The position numbers and the translations under genes were made by a program. The notes beneath the pieces are model-generated. The model saw only the letters and a program-made list of their open reading frames with translations. It did not search any database and was not told the origin of the DNA. Positions 1 through 32,154 of a stretch of DNA of 32,154 nt are shown piece by piece. The stretch lies in the IMG/VR virus record IMGVR_UViG_3300048672_000375, positions 1-32,154 of that record. One strand, 5' to 3'. The stretch's first letter is position 1. Each line of letters opens with the position of its first letter. Origin of the DNA: a virus.

Positions 1-742
1 AACTGTTAATTTTAGCTACTTTAATTCAGTTGATGCTAACAAATCAAATGCGATTGATTGGAGCGATAAACTAGACGTTACCGAACTGCCAACTATTCAA
101 TACGCAATTGATGGTTACAGCCAAAATAACTTATTAAATTATGAAACTGATGACAATGATAGTGAGTTAAGAAAAGCTGTTAATTATGGTCAAGGAACTT
201 TGTTTTGCAATAATCTAAATTTAGAAAAAACAAGCGAAGTTTTTAAAAGTAAATTTGCACCAATAACAAGAATTCCAGCACTAAAAGAAACTCCAACAAT
301 TCAAGCGTTTATTCAACTATGGCAAAGCGAAGACAACGGAGTTACATTTAGAACGCAATCGGTTAAACCTCGAATAGCTTATATAATAAGGGGTGAAACA
401 TTTACTATACATGGCAATGACCACGAAATCGGAGGGGGTAGTGGTGCAAGCAATACAGGGTTAAGCGCAGGAGTTTATTTTCAAGATTTAGAGTTTGCAG
501 GCTCACTAATACCGAAGCACTACAACATTGTTGTAAATATGTTAAATAGCCCTTATTTTTTAAATGCAAATTTCTTTTTAAAAGTAAAAGATTATAACGA
601 AATTGATTTTACAAAACCTATATATTTGGAATGTGTAATTAAAGGATTTGGAAATATTAAAGGCTACTTTTACTGCAATGAAATAAAGCAATTTAAAATA
701 AACAGATACGAAACAACAACAGTTGAATTAATTAAAATATGA
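1..742 (+). CDS. Tail structural protein, C-terminal part (gene crosses the window ends)
   Basis: The frame is open from position 2 with no start codon, so this is the 3' part of a gene. Position 1 completes the codon left unfinished at 32154, and the frame matches the partial gene at 31505, giving a 463-residue protein if the ends join. The C-terminal half has a glycine-rich patch (GGGSG) and mixed beta-like composition, with no catalytic motif. It lies directly before the tape measure gene, and the joined protein resembles, from memory, large tail proteins found next to tape measures in Bacteroidota phages. The stop overlaps the next start (ATGA). Tail-tip or distal-tail function is inference. 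An ATG-less internal start at TTG 200 is not needed. Confidence 0.7.
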   Translation, partial: TVNFSYFNSVDANKSNAIDWSDKLDVTELPTIQYAIDGYSQNNLLNYETDDNDSELRKAVNYGQGTLFCNNLNLEKTSEVFKSKFAPITRIPALKETPTIQAFIQLWQSEDNGVTFRTQSVKPRIAYIIRGETFTIHGNDHEIGGGSGASNTGLSAGVYFQDLEFAGSLIPKHYNIVVNMLNSPYFLNANFFLKVKDYNEIDFTKPIYLECVIKGFGNIKGYFYCNEIKQFKINRYETTTVELIKI

Positions 743-4864: not shown

Positions 4865-5017
4865 ATGAATAAACTAATCAAACCAATTAATCCTTTTGGC
4901 AATGGCTGCGAGCCAATTTCGGAATGTAACGATGCTATAAAAGAATGGCTTATCGAAACTGGCAAAGCAACCGAAGCCGACTTTGTTTCAAAATCTAAAA
5001 AAGACAAATCAGAATAA
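4865..5017 (+). CDS. Small conserved-position protein before the capsid gene (50 aa)
   Basis: The frame opens at ATG 4865, two bases after the protease/scaffold stop, and its stop overlaps the capsid start (TAATG). This tight coupling argues for translation. The 50-residue product has two cysteines (GCEPISEC), a helix-like middle (NDAIKEWLIETGKATEADF) and a lysine-rich tail. No family is recognised. The location suggests a minor head or assembly protein, which is inference. Confidence 0.6.
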   Translation: MNKLIKPINPFGNGCEPISECNDAIKEWLIETGKATEADFVSKSKKDKSE

Positions 5018-12303: not shown

Positions 12304-12843
12304 ATGAGTAAGTTTAAAGAATGGTTTGAAAATAATTTAATTGTTGGTGGCTTCCCTCATGAAGATAATAGACAGTTTGATATAAATGAGTTTGACTATG
12401 TAATTAATGTGTCAGATGAATATTATAATAGCCATCATTTGCTATTAATTTCAAATAATATTAAGTCTTTTTGGTTTCCGATGAACGAAGCTAAAAAAGA
12501 TATTGGTTTAAATTCTATTTATGGCGCAATGGTTATCTTATTTCAAGCCGAAAAAACAAATAGTAAAGTTTATTTACATTGTCACGCAGGGGTTAATAGA
12601 AGCCAAACAGTAAGGGCTGCTTATTATTACATGAGAACAGGTAATCAGTATTTACCGGAAAGTAAAAGAGGGTTTATAAATCAATTATATGCCAATTGCT
12701 CACGTGGTTATTTACCACCAATGGCCGAAATGGAAAAGTTTTTAAACGGGGTAGGTATTAAACTAAACTCTGATTTGCAAAAGCGAAATCTAATGGGTGG
12801 TATGCTTGACGATATAAAAATAAATTCAATAAATAATTTTTAA
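12304..12843 (+). CDS. Dual-specificity / tyrosine phosphatase-like protein
   Basis: 179 residues carrying the signature HCxxGxxRS as HCHAGVNRS (92-100), in which Cys93 would be the nucleophile and Arg99 would bind phosphate. Upstream, LIVGGFPHEDN and YVINVSDEYY fit the start of the dual-specificity phosphatase fold, with a candidate general-acid region at WFPMNEAKKD (57-66). It starts 1 nt after the spanin candidate and is followed by a strong terminator, so it is expressed late. Substrate could be a host phosphoprotein, phosphorylated nucleotide or RNA end; the sequence does not say. Confidence 0.78.
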   Translation: MSKFKEWFENNLIVGGFPHEDNRQFDINEFDYVINVSDEYYNSHHLLLISNNIKSFWFPMNEAKKDIGLNSIYGAMVILFQAEKTNSKVYLHCHAGVNRSQTVRAAYYYMRTGNQYLPESKRGFINQLYANCSRGYLPPMAEMEKFLNGVGIKLNSDLQKRNLMGGMLDDIKINSINNF

Positions 12844-17590: not shown

Positions 17591-18426
17591 AAGAAAAAAA
17601 AGAAAAAAAGAGGGATGGAAATAAATAAAATATACAACGAAGATTGTTTGCTAACTATGGAAAGGTTAGAACCAAACTGTATTGATGCAATACTTACAAG
17701 CCCACCATACAATACAAGCAGAAAAGGAAGTAGTTTAAATGGTGCTTGTGCAAATGTGAGATACGATGAATTTAACGATTGCAAAACAGATGATGAATAC
17801 ATTGCTTGGACTATTGACATATTTAAAGGCTACGACAAAGTATTGAAGCAAAACGGAGTGATTTTATACAACCTTTCATATTCAAGTGAAAATACACATT
17901 TGATGTGGCTTGTAGTTGCGGAAATAATGAAGCAAACAAACTTTTTAGTAGCTGACAATATCATTTGGAAAAAGCCAAGCACAAGCCCGAATAGTTGTAG
18001 CCCAAACAAACTTACAAGGATGTGTGAATATGTATTTGTTTTTTGCAGAAAGAATGAATTTGAAACTTTTTCTTGTAACAAAGAAGTAAGCTCATTAAGA
18101 ACAACAGGACAAATTGCTTACAAAAATTACTCAAACTTTTTAACTGCAAAAAACAATGATGGCTCAAATGATATTCATAAAGCAACTTTTAGTAGTGAAC
18201 TTGTGAGAAAGCTATTATTACTTTATGTGAAAGAAGGAAGTTTAGTTTATGATAGCTTTATGGGAACAGGAACAACAGCAGTAGGATGTTTAATTGAAAA
18301 GATGAACTACATAGGAAGTGAGATAAGCCAAAGATATGTTACAGATGCAAACAAACGAATTGAAGTATATGCTAACCAACCATCATTATTTTAAAAGTGC
18401 GGTGGGCTTTTTTTCTTTTTTTTCTT
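17591..18426. repeat. Perfect 20-bp inverted repeat flanking the cassette 2 methyltransferase
   Basis: AAG-A8-G-A7-G at 17591-17610 is repeated exactly, inverted, at 18407-18426 (C-T7-C-T8-CTT), just outside the methyltransferase gene. The run lengths match exactly, which makes independent low-complexity origin less likely. A transcript of the gene could close into a panhandle. Confidence 0.6.
17615..18394 (+). CDS. DNA methyltransferase, N4-cytosine/N6-adenine (beta-class) type
   Basis: 259 residues. Catalytic motif IV is TSPPYN (28-33) and the S-adenosylmethionine motif is DSFMGTGTT (213-221); motif IV before motif I is the beta-class order. The SPPY form is most common in N4-cytosine enzymes but also occurs in N6-adenine ones. 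No endonuclease gene is adjacent, so this is an orphan methylase, plausibly protecting the phage from host restriction. It is the only gene of cassette 2. Start ATG 17615 follows a purine tract (AGAGGG). Confidence 0.88.
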   Translation: MEINKIYNEDCLLTMERLEPNCIDAILTSPPYNTSRKGSSLNGACANVRYDEFNDCKTDDEYIAWTIDIFKGYDKVLKQNGVILYNLSYSSENTHLMWLVVAEIMKQTNFLVADNIIWKKPSTSPNSCSPNKLTRMCEYVFVFCRKNEFETFSCNKEVSSLRTTGQIAYKNYSNFLTAKNNDGSNDIHKATFSSELVRKLLLLYVKEGSLVYDSFMGTGTTAVGCLIEKMNYIGSEISQRYVTDANKRIEVYANQPSLF

Positions 18427-18464: not shown

Positions 18465-18597
18465 TATAACGGTATCGGGCTTGGCGAAGGCGGGGATTTT
18501 AACCACAAAAGTTTAATAGAATGACAGAAGATAATACAACCACGAATGTTGATTTGGAAAACGGAAGCCCCGCTTTTGCCAAACCCGTGTTACCCGC
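18465..18597 (+). repeat. attC-like inverted repeat C
   Basis: Left arm 18465-18495 (TATAACGG... GGGCTTGGCGAAGGCGGGG) and right arm 18568-18593 (CCCCGCTTTTGCCAAACCC... GTTA) pair around a 72-nt loop. The inner arms are nearly the same as in repeat B, with a compensating change (GTGGGC/GCCCAC to GCGGGG/CCCCGC). GTT core 18589-18591. Confidence 0.8.
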
Positions 18598-19270
18598 AGT
18601 GCTTCCTTTCGTTAATGAAGTGGCTTGCATTGATTGGGAAGAGGGGATTAAGCAGGTTTTTGATAATACGATTGACCTTGTATTAACAGACCCGCCCTAT
18701 GGGATGGCATACCGAAGCAACCGAAGAAAGGAGAAACATAAAAGTATCCAAAACGATACCGATTTAGACTGGTTGGGTGATTGGTGCAAGGAACTAAAAA
18801 GGGTATGCAAACACGAAGCCCACCTTTATATTTTTTGCAGTTGGCACAATATTGATGTTTTTAAGCAAACATTAGGGGCGTATTTCAATGTTAAAAATAT
18901 TTTGGTATGGGAAAAGAATAATCACGGTAGCGGTGATTTACTTGGTGATTACGCCCCGAAATATGAACTGATTATATTTTGTAGCAATGGAAGCAAAAAA
19001 TTAAATGGTGGGCGAAGTAGCAACGTGATAAAATGTGCAAAGATGCCAACCGATAATCACCCAACCGAAAAGCCAACAAACCTACTAAGGCACTTGATAG
19101 AAAAAAGCACCAACAAAGGCGATTTAGTTTTGGATACTTTTGCTGGTAGTTTTTCAACTGCAAGGGCTTGCAAAGAAATAGGGCGGGATTTCATTTGTTT
19201 TGAAGTCGAACCCGAATATTGTCGAACCGCTAAAAACCTGCTTAATGGTGTGTCAGTGTCGCTGTTTTAG
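18521..19270 (+). CDS. DNA adenine methyltransferase (DPPY type)
   Basis: From ATG 18521 the frame is 249 residues. Motif IV is TDPPYG (56-61) and the S-adenosylmethionine motif is DTFAGSFST (205-213), a divergence from the usual DPFAGSGTT; motif order is beta-class. HPTEKPTNLLRHLI (about 186-199) is a family hallmark before motif I. The first 26 residues are encoded by repeat C; an in-frame GTG at 18599 lies just inside the cassette and is the likelier native start (223 aa). The gene has more G and C than its neighbours. No partner endonuclease is seen. Confidence 0.85.
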   Translation: MTEDNTTTNVDLENGSPAFAKPVLPAVLPFVNEVACIDWEEGIKQVFDNTIDLVLTDPPYGMAYRSNRRKEKHKSIQNDTDLDWLGDWCKELKRVCKHEAHLYIFCSWHNIDVFKQTLGAYFNVKNILVWEKNNHGSGDLLGDYAPKYELIIFCSNGSKKLNGGRSSNVIKCAKMPTDNHPTEKPTNLLRHLIEKSTNKGDLVLDTFAGSFSTARACKEIGRDFICFEVEPEYCRTAKNLLNGVSVSLF

Positions 19271-24610: not shown

Positions 24611-24796
24611 ATGGAAATAAAAGGAAAACTAATTTACTGCACTAAACACAAACAAAATTATTTTGTAAGTGTAGAAAACAACGACTTTATAAAATTGGTA
24701 TCAACTCGAAAAGATGTCGTTATGGACCAGCTACAATTTAGCAGGCCGTATTTTTTAGATTTGGTTAAACATGGTAAGTTAATAATAAGTAAGTAA
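24611..24796 (+). CDS. Hypothetical protein (61 aa)
   Basis: A small basic protein (IYCTKHKQNYFVSV... LVKHGKLIISK) whose last base is the first base of the ParB-like start (TAATG). It may be the first gene of the modification operon. Residues about 12-30 look like a beta hairpin. No family is recognised. Confidence 0.55.
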   Translation: MEIKGKLIYCTKHKQNYFVSVENNDFIKLVSTRKDVVMDQLQFSRPYFLDLVKHGKLIISK

Positions 24797-25371
24797 TGAA
24801 AATAGAAAAAGTAAAAATATCGGAAGTAAAAAGTAATCCAAACAATCCGAGAGTAATTAAAGATGACAAGTTTAAAAAGCTAGTTCAATCGGTTAAAGAA
24901 TTCCCTCAAATGCTTGAAATTAGACCAATAGTAGTAAATGATGAAATGATTGTTTTAGGTGGGAATATGCGATTAAAGGCTTGCATAGAAGCAGGATTAA
25001 AAGAAGTTTCAATAATCAAAGCAAGTGAATTAACACCAGAGCAACAAAACGAATTTATTATTAAGGATAATGTCGGATTTGGTGAGTGGAATTGGGACGA
25101 TTTAGCGAATGGGTGGGACGATGAAAAATTAGTTGAATGGGGTTTGGACGTCCCAAGTTTTGCAAGTGAAGTTGATTATTCAATATTAGATAATGATGAT
25201 GTTAGCAGCCAACTAGCGGATATGACTAATGGAGTAAAAAAAGCTATACAGATTGAATTTGAAGCTGAATACTATGAAGAAGCCTGCGAACTGGTAAAGT
25301 TTTGGAGAAGTCAAGGTGATGTAGGTTATATGATTTTGCAATATTTAAAAGCTGAAAAAGAAAAATTATGA
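24796..25371 (+). CDS. ParB-like nuclease-fold protein
   Basis: 191 residues. The N-terminal domain shows the ParB/sulfiredoxin fold signatures: NPNNPR (13-18), a helix with VKEF, and LGGNMRLKACIEAGLKEV (about 54-71). Next comes the segment DNVGFGEWNWDDLA (about 91-104) and an acidic C-terminal part. In phages such domains commonly travel with DNA-modification genes rather than plasmid partition, and here it overlaps the glycosyltransferase gene by 4 nt. It may bind or nick DNA in the modification process (inference). Confidence 0.83.
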   Translation: MKIEKVKISEVKSNPNNPRVIKDDKFKKLVQSVKEFPQMLEIRPIVVNDEMIVLGGNMRLKACIEAGLKEVSIIKASELTPEQQNEFIIKDNVGFGEWNWDDLANGWDDEKLVEWGLDVPSFASEVDYSILDNDDVSSQLADMTNGVKKAIQIEFEAEYYEEACELVKFWRSQGDVGYMILQYLKAEKEKL

Positions 25372-26099
25372 TTTGTTTTATTCCAACAAAAAGTAGATTA
25401 AATACTAAAACTTATAAACTTTTTGAAGAAGTTGGTATAAAAGTTTTTCATTTTATAGAACCGCAAGAAATTGAAAAATACGAAGTTCCAAACAAAATTT
25501 CTATTTTAGAAAATAATAAAGGTATAGGTTATGTAAGGAATTTTATGCTTAATTATGCACGAAAAAATAATTATGAATGGGTTTTAATTTGTGATGACGA
25601 TGTTATCTCTTTTGGTATTTACAATGGCAAAACAATAAAACAAGATGCTTCAATTTGGTTTAAAATATTAGACAAAGCAAAGAAGCTACCATTTGAATTA
25701 ATAGGAATAAATTATACTCAACACGCTTGGCACGAAAAGGCAAGTTATTCTATAAATAAAAAATTTGCAGAAGTATGTGTATTGATGAATGTATCAAAAA
25801 TTAAATGGAATTACAGACCTGAATTTAATTTAAAAGAAGATAGAGATTTTGCTTTACAAACAATTAAAAACGGAAATGGCATTTTAAGATTTAACCATTA
25901 TTGGTTTTCTTGCCCTAATGTTGGTTCAAACGTTGGAGGGTTGCAAGATGAATATAAACAAAAAAAAGACGAAGACTCAGCAAAAAAAATGTGTTATGAG
26001 TGGCATCCTTTCGTTGCATTACAAAAGAAAGGGGATAGAGTAGATATGAAAACAGATATTAAAGGCTTGGCAAATCACTATAAAAAAACAGTAAAATGA
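25368..26099 (+). CDS. GT-A glycosyltransferase of the TET-associated type
   Basis: 243 residues with a nucleotide-sugar-binding fold. ICDDDV (75-79 region, Asp76-78) is the DxD-type metal motif. Upstream GIGYVRNFML (52-61) matches the acceptor/RN motif of TET-associated glycosyltransferases. FNLKEDRDFALQTI (153-166) supplies the conserved ED. The family is known from phages that add sugars to hydroxylated bases. It overlaps both the ParB-like and dioxygenase genes by 4 nt. Target would be a hydroxymethyl base in phage DNA (inference); a protein or wall target is possible. Confidence 0.75.
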   Translation: MICFIPTKSRLNTKTYKLFEEVGIKVFHFIEPQEIEKYEVPNKISILENNKGIGYVRNFMLNYARKNNYEWVLICDDDVISFGIYNGKTIKQDASIWFKILDKAKKLPFELIGINYTQHAWHEKASYSINKKFAEVCVLMNVSKIKWNYRPEFNLKEDRDFALQTIKNGNGILRFNHYWFSCPNVGSNVGGLQDEYKQKKDEDSAKKMCYEWHPFVALQKKGDRVDMKTDIKGLANHYKKTVK

Positions 26100-26887
26100 A
26101 AAGAATTGATTTAATACAAATAGAACACAATACAAAAATAGGTGATGTGTGCGAATACAAAGAGCCAAATGTAACAGAAGATTGTATATTTTATGCAGAT
26201 GGCGAACCAATAGGATTTTATCTTACAAAAATGCCTGAAAAGATGTGTAAACTTGCAGATTTGGCAAATGCAGAATTTAGAAGTAAGAATGTAAAAAAAA
26301 CATTATTAACAAGAAGAACAGGCGATGGAATAGATGAAAAAACAGGAAACTTTAAATATAAAAATGAAGTTGAGCAGTTAAGTGCAATAATTGGTAGTAT
26401 ACCACCAAAACCTCATATGTCAAGACCATATCCATCAATTTCAAGCGTTCATTTAAATAAAAAATCGGAAACATTTATTAAAGCTATGTTATTACTTGCT
26501 AAAGAAAGCGAACAGCTTATAAAAGAATTACTACCAAAACAATACCAACAACAAATTGAATTATTTAAAGATGTTAATGAAAAATGGAGATTTGCAAATC
26601 TATTCACAAGCTCAATTTCAAACTATAATATTTCAGCACCATTTCATCGTGATACAAGAAATATAGTTGGAGCAGTAAATGTAATCATTTGTAAAAAATT
26701 CAATTCAAAAGGTGGTGATTTACATATTCCTGATTACAATGCTACAATAGGGCAAAAAGACAATTCAATATTAGTTTATCCAGCTTGGCGAAATATGCAT
26801 GGTGTTACACCAATTATACCTACATTTGAGGGTGGATATAGGAACAGTTTAGTATTTTATCCGCTTAAAGCATTTAAAGGATTATAA
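26096..26887 (+). CDS. TET/JBP-family 2-oxoglutarate, Fe(II) dioxygenase
   Basis: 263 residues. The double-stranded beta helix shows the iron facial triad His184 and Asp186 (PFHRDTRNI) and distal His235 (MHGVTPI), and the 2-oxoglutarate-binding Arg249 (GGYRNSLVFYPLK). Also visible is SKGGDLHIPDYN (204-215). The segment NYNISAPFHRD matches the TET/JBP family, which oxidises 5-methylcytosine or thymine in DNA. The N-terminal 160 residues are helical and may be a DNA-binding part. The gene overlaps the glycosyltransferase, suggesting the oxidised base is glycosylated. Confidence 0.85.
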   Translation: MKRIDLIQIEHNTKIGDVCEYKEPNVTEDCIFYADGEPIGFYLTKMPEKMCKLADLANAEFRSKNVKKTLLTRRTGDGIDEKTGNFKYKNEVEQLSAIIGSIPPKPHMSRPYPSISSVHLNKKSETFIKAMLLLAKESEQLIKELLPKQYQQQIELFKDVNEKWRFANLFTSSISNYNISAPFHRDTRNIVGAVNVIICKKFNSKGGDLHIPDYNATIGQKDNSILVYPAWRNMHGVTPIIPTFEGGYRNSLVFYPLKAFKGL

Positions 26888-26890
26888 CAA

Positions 26891-27256
26891 ATGGCATACG
26901 ATAAACAAAAGATATTTGAACAAGCAAAAGAAGTAACAGTAAAACACAAATTGTTTTTTATTGAAGATATTGTAGCGTTTTTGCCTTGCGACAAAACAAC
27001 TTTCTACCGTTTTTTCGAGCCTGAAAGCAACGAATACAACGAACTAAAAGAATTACTTGAACAAAATAGAGTAATGTTAAAAGTTTCAATGAGGTCAAAA
27101 TGGTATACTTCAAACGCTCCAGCTTTACAAATGGCTTTAATGAAACTAATTGCAACGCCTGAGGAGTTACGAAAATTATCAATGACACACGTTCAAACAG
27201 AGGAATTTGAAAAACCAATATTTAAACCAATTGATTTGGATGTTGAAAATAGCTAG
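26891..27256 (+). CDS. terS: Putative terminase small subunit
   Basis: 121 residues just before the large terminase. A helical N-terminal part with a DNA-binding-like pattern (DIVAFLPCDKTTFYRFF, about 25-42) and a C-terminal part MRSKWYTSNAPALQMALMKLIATPEELRKLSM (about 67-100) resemble small terminase subunits of Bacteroidota phages, which recognise the packaging site. The stop is 44 nt before the large-subunit start. Identity rests on position and resemblance. Confidence 0.7.
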   Translation: MAYDKQKIFEQAKEVTVKHKLFFIEDIVAFLPCDKTTFYRFFEPESNEYNELKELLEQNRVMLKVSMRSKWYTSNAPALQMALMKLIATPEELRKLSMTHVQTEEFEKPIFKPIDLDVENS

Positions 27257-27300: not shown

Positions 27301-28470
27301 ATGCTAATAGAAACAACAGCACAAAAGAAAATAAGTAAGCTAAAAAAAAGAATAAGGATAGTGCAGGGAGGAACTTCGAGCTCTAAGACCTTTAGCATAC
27401 TCCCTTTGCTTATTCAGTACGCTTGGCAATGTCCTAAATCTGAAATTAGTGTTGTGAGCGAAAGCATACCACATTTAAAACGTGGTGCAATTCGTGATTT
27501 TTTAAAGATAATGGATTGGACTGGCAATTTAAATTATAGTAGATGGAACAAATCAAGTTTGACCTATCATTTTGCAAACGGTTCGTTTATTGAATTTTTT
27601 AGCGCAGACCAGCCAGACAAACTAAGAGGAGCAAGGCGTGACATTCTATTTATTAACGAGTGTAATAACGTAGCATTTGAAAGCTATCAGCAGTTAGCAA
27701 TTAGGACAAAGAAATTTATTTATTTGGATTATAACCCAACTAGCGAGTTTTGGGTGCATAGTGAACTATCCGGTGAAATTGATAGCGATTTTATTATTTT
27801 AACTTATAAAGACAATGAAGCCTTAGCACAATCAATTGTAACCGAAATTGAAAAGGCAAAAATAAAAGCACAGACTAGTGAATATTGGGCTAATTGGTGG
27901 AAAGTTTACGGACTTGGCCAAGTAGGCAGCTTGCAAGGTATTATTTTTGACGATTGGAAACATATTGACAATATACCAAATGAGTCTAAATACTTAGGTA
28001 CTGGAATTGATTTTGGATATACCAATGACCCCACAACAATAATAGACTTATATCAATTAGGTAATGATATTTATTTAGATGAACAGATGTATTTAACCAA
28101 TCAAACAAATAATGACATAGCTAAATTTTTAAAGTCAAAACAAAATAAAGGGTTAAATGTGGCTGATAGTGCAGAACCCAAATCAATCAAAGAAATTAGT
28201 TTGCAAGGGGTCAATATAGTTGGAGCTGCAAAGGGTCCCGATAGTATTAAAAATGGAATTGATTTACTTAAAAGATTTAATGTTCATGTAACTAAAAGAA
28301 GCCTTAACATAATCAAAGAGCAGCGCAATTATAAGTGGAAAACAGATAATGAAAACAAGGCCACAAACCAGCCGATTGACGCATTTAATCACACAATGGA
28401 TGCAATTAGATATATTGCAAGCCACGTTTTAAAAACTAATGTTTACAGTCGTAAAGCACGTATATGGTAA
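27301..28470 (+). CDS. terL: Terminase large subunit
   Basis: 389 residues. ATPase: Walker A GGTSSSKT (23-30) and Walker B with catalytic glutamate DILFINE (114-120). Nuclease: Asp237 in GTGIDFGYTNDPT, Asp289 in NVADSAEPKSI, and Asp360/Asp367 in DAFNHTMDAIRY, the expected RNase H-like order. The motor packages DNA and cuts the concatemer. The frame is open upstream to 27253 without a standard start, so ATG 27301 is chosen; it gives the normal spacing before Walker A. Length is typical. Confidence 0.92.
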   Translation: MLIETTAQKKISKLKKRIRIVQGGTSSSKTFSILPLLIQYAWQCPKSEISVVSESIPHLKRGAIRDFLKIMDWTGNLNYSRWNKSSLTYHFANGSFIEFFSADQPDKLRGARRDILFINECNNVAFESYQQLAIRTKKFIYLDYNPTSEFWVHSELSGEIDSDFIILTYKDNEALAQSIVTEIEKAKIKAQTSEYWANWWKVYGLGQVGSLQGIIFDDWKHIDNIPNESKYLGTGIDFGYTNDPTTIIDLYQLGNDIYLDEQMYLTNQTNNDIAKFLKSKQNKGLNVADSAEPKSIKEISLQGVNIVGAAKGPDSIKNGIDLLKRFNVHVTKRSLNIIKEQRNYKWKTDNENKATNQPIDAFNHTMDAIRYIASHVLKTNVYSRKARIW

Positions 28471-31505: not shown

Positions 31506-32154
31506 TGAAAATAACTATAAATGATATTGAAGTTGATGCGATAGTTGATAATGACATTGCGCTGACTAAGTCAGTTAATAAAATGCAATCTTTAAGTAGT
31601 CGCAATGGCTCATTCAGTACTGAAATTGAAGCAGGATTAAGCACTAATAACCGACAATTAACAGCCAATAGTCAATCAACTGATAGTGTAACTAATTTCC
31701 CTTACTCAGTTAATTTGTGCGAAATTGAAGCGCATGGATATAATGTTATGCAAGGCTTTGCTACACTTGAGGAAACAAGCGCAAACTATAAAATAAGGGC
31801 TTTTGGTGAACTTTCAAATATCTTTGATTTAATAGGTGATGCGAAACTAAAAGAGTTAAATTTAGATTATTCTAATGGTAGCGCAATAAATCACATTTGG
31901 AATTATGCAAACGTAATAGCAAATAGAAATAACACTTGGCAAAGTGGATTTATTTATCCTAATATCAATTATGGCAAGTGGGACGACAAGCAAGTAAAGG
32001 CATATTGGGAAGACTTGTACCCTTCAATTTTTTGCAAGTATTTGTTTTTACGAATATTTCATTCAATAGGATATGCAGTAAGTGGCGAATTTTTAACAAA
32101 CGATTTATTTGAACGTGAAATTTTGCCAATGGTTAAGATACCTAGCACCCCTGA
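31505..32154 (+). CDS. Tail structural protein, N-terminal part (continues at position 1)
   Basis: Starts at ATG 31505 in overlap with the previous stop and stays open to the last base, ending two bases into a codon that position 1 completes. Residues about 158-200 contain FIYPNINYGKWDD, then DLYPSIFCKYLFLRIFHSIGYAVSG, a segment I recall from tail proteins beside tape measures in Bacteroidota phages. Together with 1-742 it gives 463 residues. Tail-tip or distal-tail role is inferred. Confidence 0.68.
   Translation, partial: MKITINDIEVDAIVDNDIALTKSVNKMQSLSSRNGSFSTEIEAGLSTNNRQLTANSQSTDSVTNFPYSVNLCEIEAHGYNVMQGFATLEETSANYKIRAFGELSNIFDLIGDAKLKELNLDYSNGSAINHIWNYANVIANRNNTWQSGFIYPNINYGKWDDKQVKAYWEDLYPSIFCKYLFLRIFHSIGYAVSGEFLTNDLFEREILPMVKIPSTP

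Follow-up and report, generated by a model that had tools for sequence, protein, structure and literature searches.

We find a gene order, ParB-[slot]-TET-TerS-TerL, that by sequence comparison appears to be a fixed frame across distant phages and to be new. The slot between the ParB-like gene and the TET/JBP-family dioxygenase gene appears to be swapped, holding a TET-associated glycosyltransferase (TAGT), an FkbM-type methyltransferase, an AADT/kinase set, or nothing. We conclude that the frame is very probably a cassette for post-replicative DNA hypermodification that forms part of the packaging locus. DNA hypermodification, which an initial annotation had given as the likely purpose, gains support from the TET/JBP membership of the dioxygenase and from the TET-associated glycosyltransferase; judged from families and models it is well supported, and it is already a known kind of system.

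We infer a catalysis in two steps. The dioxygenase would act on a pyrimidine that is part of phage DNA, hydroxylating its 5-methyl group to give a 5-hydroxymethylpyrimidine, and the TAGT would then add a sugar onto the new hydroxyl. The ParB-like protein may bind phage DNA and recruit the modification enzymes to the concatemer before the adjacent terminase packages it. The ParB-TET slot would be a cargo position, whose tailoring enzyme is exchanged among phages, probably under host restriction pressure, and the modification would have a protective role, presumably as resistance to restriction.

The dioxygenase and its gene neighborhood

The window, i.e., the whole stretch of DNA analyzed, spans all 32,154 bases of one IMG/VR virus record. 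Its two ends fall inside one ORF family and the genome is hence near complete; a related record (L004:9621-11546) matches the window end at residues 6–135 and the window start at residues 411–640. The record therefore appears to be cut within one long structural ORF family, at window positions 1–742 and 31507–32154. Host assignment by a scan of bacterial genomes yielded only three MAG contigs.

On the plus strand, a 191-residue protein with a ParB/Srx-like N-terminal domain (24796–25371) is followed by the 243-residue TAGT (25368–26099) and by the 263-residue TET/JBP-family 2-oxoglutarate/Fe(II) dioxygenase (26096–26887). As initially described for 24796–26887, the three genes overlap, with plus-strand ATGA start/stop overlaps at 25368–25371 and 26096–26099, which supports an operon structure. 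These overlaps mark the left and right junctions of the slot, respectively, as read from the sequence and from relatives, in which other genes are found at the left junction. The cassette unit continues 3′ on the same strand into a 121-residue TerS-like protein (26891–27256), then into the terminase large subunit TerL (27301–28470; Pfam Terminase_3C 4.9e-21, Terminase_3 4.6e-11). The protein at 26891–27256 had no family match in Pfam and PHROGs and is called small-terminase-like by its position between TET and TerL in relatives. The ParB-GT-TET triple was found again in dozens of independent contigs, which excludes chance.

The dioxygenase matched Pfam Tet_JBP (PF12851) at 6e-9 and 35.8 bits, above the curated cut-off of 34.9. 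A profile search with 17 diverse phage TETs as query matched human TET2 at 1.3e-5 and NgTet1 at 0.002. In an AlphaFold2 model calculated from an alignment of 55 relatives (pLDDT 84), the best structural match was TET2 (Z 17.3, 243–244 residues, 3.4–3.6 Å), followed by NgTet1 (Z 16.0), CcTet (14.8), CMD1 (14.4), FTO (13) and AlkB-type enzymes (11). The HxD...H...R residues by which the initial annotation had recognized the family, i.e., H184/D186, the distal H235 and the 2-oxoglutarate arginine R249, are shared by all TET relatives (159/159). From sequence and model we conclude that the product of 26096–26887 is a genuine TET/JBP-family member, predicted to oxidize a 5-methylpyrimidine.

PHROGs places the dioxygenase in phrog_6059, labeled 'queuine tRNA-ribosyltransferase', which looks like a misannotation. 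Many phage records give this label to TET/JBP proteins (NC_020847.1 CPAG_00035 and many mycobacteriophage gp2), and the ParB gene of Prochlorococcus phage MED4-184 is annotated as 'DNA methylase'. Such queuine and 'DNA methylase' labels on phage TET and ParB genes are probably propagated misannotations.

Frame conservation and slot exchange

We surveyed 163 loci with related TETs. Upstream of TET, ParB was found in 148 of them, and downstream of it, TerL was found in 130; a contig edge cuts off many of the loci in which either was lacking. The slot held an FkbM-type methyltransferase in 95/163 loci, TAGT-type glycosyltransferases in 45, TAGT together with a P-loop kinase in one, a GATase-GNAT-AADT-kinase set in three, and in another three a 301-residue protein, GT-like by eye, which had no Pfam, NCBIfam or PHROG match. 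It was empty in nine loci and truncated in seven. Contents other than that of the window were all tailoring-type enzymes wherever they could be assigned. The glycosyltransferases of related cassettes fall into ten classes, some just 14–25% identical to the window enzyme. The commonest slot gene, the FkbM-type methyltransferase, is found at L002:16431-17132 and in most related IMG/VR loci; should it O-methylate the hydroxymethyl group, a 5-methoxymethyl pyrimidine would result.

Exchange of the slot gene is seen most directly between close relatives. The TETs of the window and of L004 are 93% identical as proteins and 85.5% as DNA, and their ParB genes are 72% identical as DNA, with unrelated slot genes in between (49% after forced alignment). 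Different slot contents were found in a third of 48 TET pairs with more than 90% identity. On the TET tree we counted 31 slot changes, against a mean of 38 and a minimum of 34 after shuffling; on the ParB tree there were 32, against a shuffled mean of 34.4 and a minimum of 29. These counts agree with frequent exchange, though the trees are weakly resolved, with 25 of 73 inner branches open, and we hence rely on the pairwise comparisons instead.

Prochlorococcus phages MED4-184 and MED4-117 have the same ParB-[slot]-TET-TerS-TerL order with an FkbM-type methyltransferase in place of the TAGT (ParB-FkbM-TET-(small)-TerL), and their TET is 49% identical to that of the window. Actinophage TETs are about 26% identical, and a TET alignment that included them was too diverse as a scan query. 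Their genomes mostly open with ParB-TET, and tailoring genes, then the terminase, usually come next; the tailoring gene thus stands after TET in actinophages, whereas it precedes TET in the window. Mycobacteriophage TET homologues of the Cooper/Nigel gp2 type show the ParB-TET-TerS-TerL order, and their ParB and terminase neighbors were reportedly noted around 2009. Nigel and KayaCho have ParB-TET and no tailoring gene. Acadian has a TAGT, too (ParB-TET-TAGT-hyp-TerS-TerL; TAGT 6.5e-38), Wooper has ParB-TET-AADT-5hmU-type kinase-hyp-terminase (AADT 1.4e-25, P-loop kinase 9e-59), and in LilMcDreamy an AADT and an aspartyl-hydroxylase-like protein follow ParB-TET. Kozie carries TET and AADT ahead of the terminase. 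In two Arthrobacter phages ParB-TET is not at the genome start: in Kharcho it is found with a kinase beside the terminase, and in Prairie away from the terminase with an annotated deacetylase and a glycosyltransferase that weakly matches TAGT.

Thymine and 5-methylcytosine as candidate bases

Phage TET systems have been described as cytosine pathways that start from a phage C5-methylase (Burke et al. 2021 PNAS; Pyle et al. 2024 Cell Rep). This C5-MTase/TET/GT pathway likewise joins a phage TET/JBP dioxygenase to a linked glycosyltransferase. Compared with that pathway, the window genome is without a C5-methyltransferase, has a leucine for the cytosine-N3 contact and has the fixed ParB-terminase frame with its exchangeable slot. 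The initial annotation had taken methylated cytosine as the substrate, and this part of it did not hold up. We consider it about an even chance that the TET substrate is thymine, as in base J; 5-methylcytosine is a weaker candidate, and another methylated base or target is less probable again. What favors thymine over 5-methylcytosine is its constant presence, together with the lack of an encoded C5-methylase.

Cytosine would be reached through the host, i.e., a host C5-methylase would make 5-methylcytosine, TET would oxidize it to 5-hydroxymethylcytosine and the TAGT would glycosylate the product. We regard this route as possible, though doubtful. The characterized phage pathways reportedly act on cytosine, and some hosts carry C5-MTases, but a route that relied on methylation by the host would be fragile in phages of Prochlorococcus, Mycobacterium, Gordonia and Microbacterium alike. 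For M. smegmatis the literature on host 5-methylcytosine is conflicting (PMC4938668).

Phage-encoded C5-methylation also speaks against the cytosine route by its distribution. The C5-cytosine methylase family (PF00145) is absent from the near-complete window genome and was found in 0/14 complete phages with related TETs. Among 61 related IMG/VR records it was absent in 50 and present in 11, five of which (L011:1593-2267, L065:3831-4499, L060, L062 and L006) have a small C5-MTase of a type mostly seen apart from TET. A phage C5-MTase missed by Pfam was considered as well; a divergent form of about 220 residues with the motif SPPCPSHS occurs in five related records and is absent from the window. 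This small family is common without TET, with a TET near one of 80 loci. In the survey of 80 ParB loci, C5-MTase took the place of TET in the ParB slot, and in no case did the two share it. Across IMG/VR, at least 598 stretches match the small C5-MTase, mostly with no TET nearby. Thymidylate-synthase homologues were absent from 36 records, and there was hence no sign of pool-level hydroxymethylation of that kind.

Residues around the base bear on the same question. Enzymes acting on 5-methylcytosine contact N4 by Asn or Asp (TET2 N1387, NgTet1 D234, CMD1 D350) and cytosine N3 by His (TET2 H1904, NgTet1 H297), and CcTet and CMD1 reach O2 through Arg (PMC7854593, PMC11040006). In the window TET, the N4 contact is kept as N189, matching TET2 N1387 as the cytosine route would have it, but the His contact is replaced by Leu257, a correspondence to H1904 that was set by profile alignment. 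N189 is kept in 158/159 TET relatives, and at the position of L257, Leu is found in 158/159 and Arg in one; actinophage TETs have Leu there, too. Thymine O4 can be served by an amide, and thymine N3-H would accept no hydrogen bond from His. By sequence, N189 would be compatible with cytosine or thymine, and the pair of N189 and Leu257 would fit thymine, short of proof. P12024L-type TETs have Asp and Arg at these positions, as in the 5-methylcytosine enzyme CMD1, and we considered them for a correlation of active-site residue with C5-MTase. C5-MTase was absent there save for one small-type match, and the comparison did not discriminate. The Leu257 argument is hence not decisive, since TETs with Asp/Arg are also without C5-MTase.

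For thymine, there are two known systems to compare. The base J pathway of kinetoplastids (JBP1/2 and JGT) also uses a TET/JBP dioxygenase and then a glycosyltransferase, with no need of a C5-methylase. In contrast to base J, the present system is of phage and not protist origin, neither a JBP DNA-binding domain nor JGT was identified, and thymine activity is hypothetical. The second is thymidine hypermodification by 5hmdU kinase and AADT in phages ViI, M6 and phiW-14. AADT and 5hmU-type P-loop kinases, which belong to thymine hypermodification (PMC6449724), recur in the cassettes of relatives, whereas the window cassette has a glycosyltransferase instead. Moreover, 5hmdU is incorporated at replication in ViI, M6 and phiW-14 (PMC6449724), whereas the window TET would make it on DNA. 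A large, globally spread phage group keeps TET and tailoring enzymes without C5-methylase, which makes the use of thymine by phage TETs now testable.

The ParB-like protein and the glycosyltransferase

The initial assignment of a ParB fold to the first gene was borne out. Its product matched Pfam ParB_N at 1.9e-6 and 28.2 bits (cut-off 26.3) and Spo0J (1vz0) in the PDB at E 5e-4, and it scored 25.4 with NCBIfam parB_part, far below the cut-off of 58.5. To 80 ParB relatives with at least 1.8 kb of downstream sequence we could assign a DNA-modification module in every case (80/80): TET at 61, a fusion of ParB to an N6/N4-MTase at nine, C5-MTase at five, Mom at three, and DpdA-like, QueC and GTP cyclohydrolase genes at two. 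L336, L338, L342, L345 and others are loci with Mom, the ParB-N6/N4-MTase fusion, DpdA and queuosine genes or C5-MTase instead of TET. From these sequences the ParB-terminase interval appears to be a general DNA-modification slot.

As a control that was not selected by ParB, we took 58 related-terminase loci with at least 2.5 kb of upstream sequence. ParB and module were both present in 28 and both absent in 19; four had ParB and no module, seven a module and no ParB. A module was thus found at 28/32 loci with ParB versus 7/26 without (Fisher p 3e-6, which overstates the certainty, as close contigs recur and the loci are not independent samples). When read from sequence, three of the four loci with ParB and no recognized module had unassigned enzyme-like genes, with a glycosyltransferase without TET at two and an ATPase with a GNAT at one; the fourth had a PAPS-reductase-like protein. 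About 1 kb upstream of TerL in L457 and L458, a ParB gene precedes a glycosyltransferase with a DDD-like motif, and no TET lies before the terminase. In L431, upstream of TerL at 5001, the PAPS-reductase-like protein stands beside a second ParB-like gene, and a sulfur-based modification is possible.

Gene order suggests that ParB may be the shared DNA-targeting partner of the modification enzymes. The slot would also serve as a finding aid, in that any enzyme there is a candidate DNA-modifying enzyme; candidates flagged in this way include the FkbM methyltransferases, unassigned proteins and glycosyltransferases without TET. Tentatively, we propose a phage counterpart of base J, with TET/JBP thymine hydroxylation and TAGT glycosylation, on a terminase-linked ParB platform with modules exchanged wholesale (TET plus tailoring, C5-MTase, Mom, 7-deazaguanine, N6/N4-MTase). 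If this is true, the ParB-like protein would serve phages generally as the subunit that directs DNA modification to its target when packaging takes place.

The modification might instead be a packaging mark or regulate the terminase, with ParB and the base mark defining the packaging substrate, and give no protection against restriction. TerS/TerL adjacency is constant across distant phages and ParB is there even when the slot is empty, both of which speak for such a mark. We nevertheless find it rather unlikely, because slot chemistry varies freely among phages with near-identical TETs, as expected of counter-defense and not of a specific recognition mark, and terminase relatives without ParB or module exist.

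The glycosyltransferase (25368–26099) matched Pfam TAGT (PF20691) at 6.1e-15 and 56.1 bits, above the curated cut-off of 27.5. This family takes in the beta-glucosyl-HMC-alpha-glucosyltransferases of T-even phages, and the PHROGs family of the protein, beta-glucosyl-HMC-alpha-glucosyltransferase, agrees with Pfam. From the two motifs named initially, DDD (residues 76–78) is invariant across the GT alignment, and RN (GYVRNF) is kept among close relatives alone. One of five structure models reached a pLDDT of 84.6, the remaining four staying below 70. It has a GT-A fold; many sugar transferases matched at Z 12–14, all of them generic GT-A enzymes, with no DNA-specific enzyme among the structural matches. 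Because the fold matches are generic, we base the DNA assignment on the TAGT family match and the TET linkage, which separate the enzyme from those for sugar polymers. Close homologues adjoin TET in 39/39 loci. Sequence evidence thus supports a TET-associated glycosyltransferase, predicted to transfer sugar to hydroxymethylated DNA. Action on cell-surface or capsid glycans by a merely co-located enzyme would suit the generic structural matches but is very improbable given the TAGT match, the constant TET neighborhood and the translational overlap with TET. At the level of sequence families, neither of the outcomes that the initial annotation had named as contrary was found, i.e., a glycosyltransferase grouping with cell-wall enzymes or a dioxygenase outside TET/JBP.

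Elsewhere in the window, two adjacent genes (17615–18394 and 18521–19270) encode N6/N4 DNA methylases with TSPPYN and DPPYG motifs. That TET oxidizes an N-methylated base made by these two PF01555 enzymes (demethylation or N6/N4-hydroxymethyl chemistry), as the action of its relative CcTet on 6mA might suggest, is the least probable reading, since PF01555 was found in just 6/36 related records and the 6mA-excluding residue (Asn1387/Asp234/Asp350) is Asn here but Gly in CcTet. A further window protein (12304–12843) has an HCHAGVNRS motif and resembles dual-specificity phosphatases.
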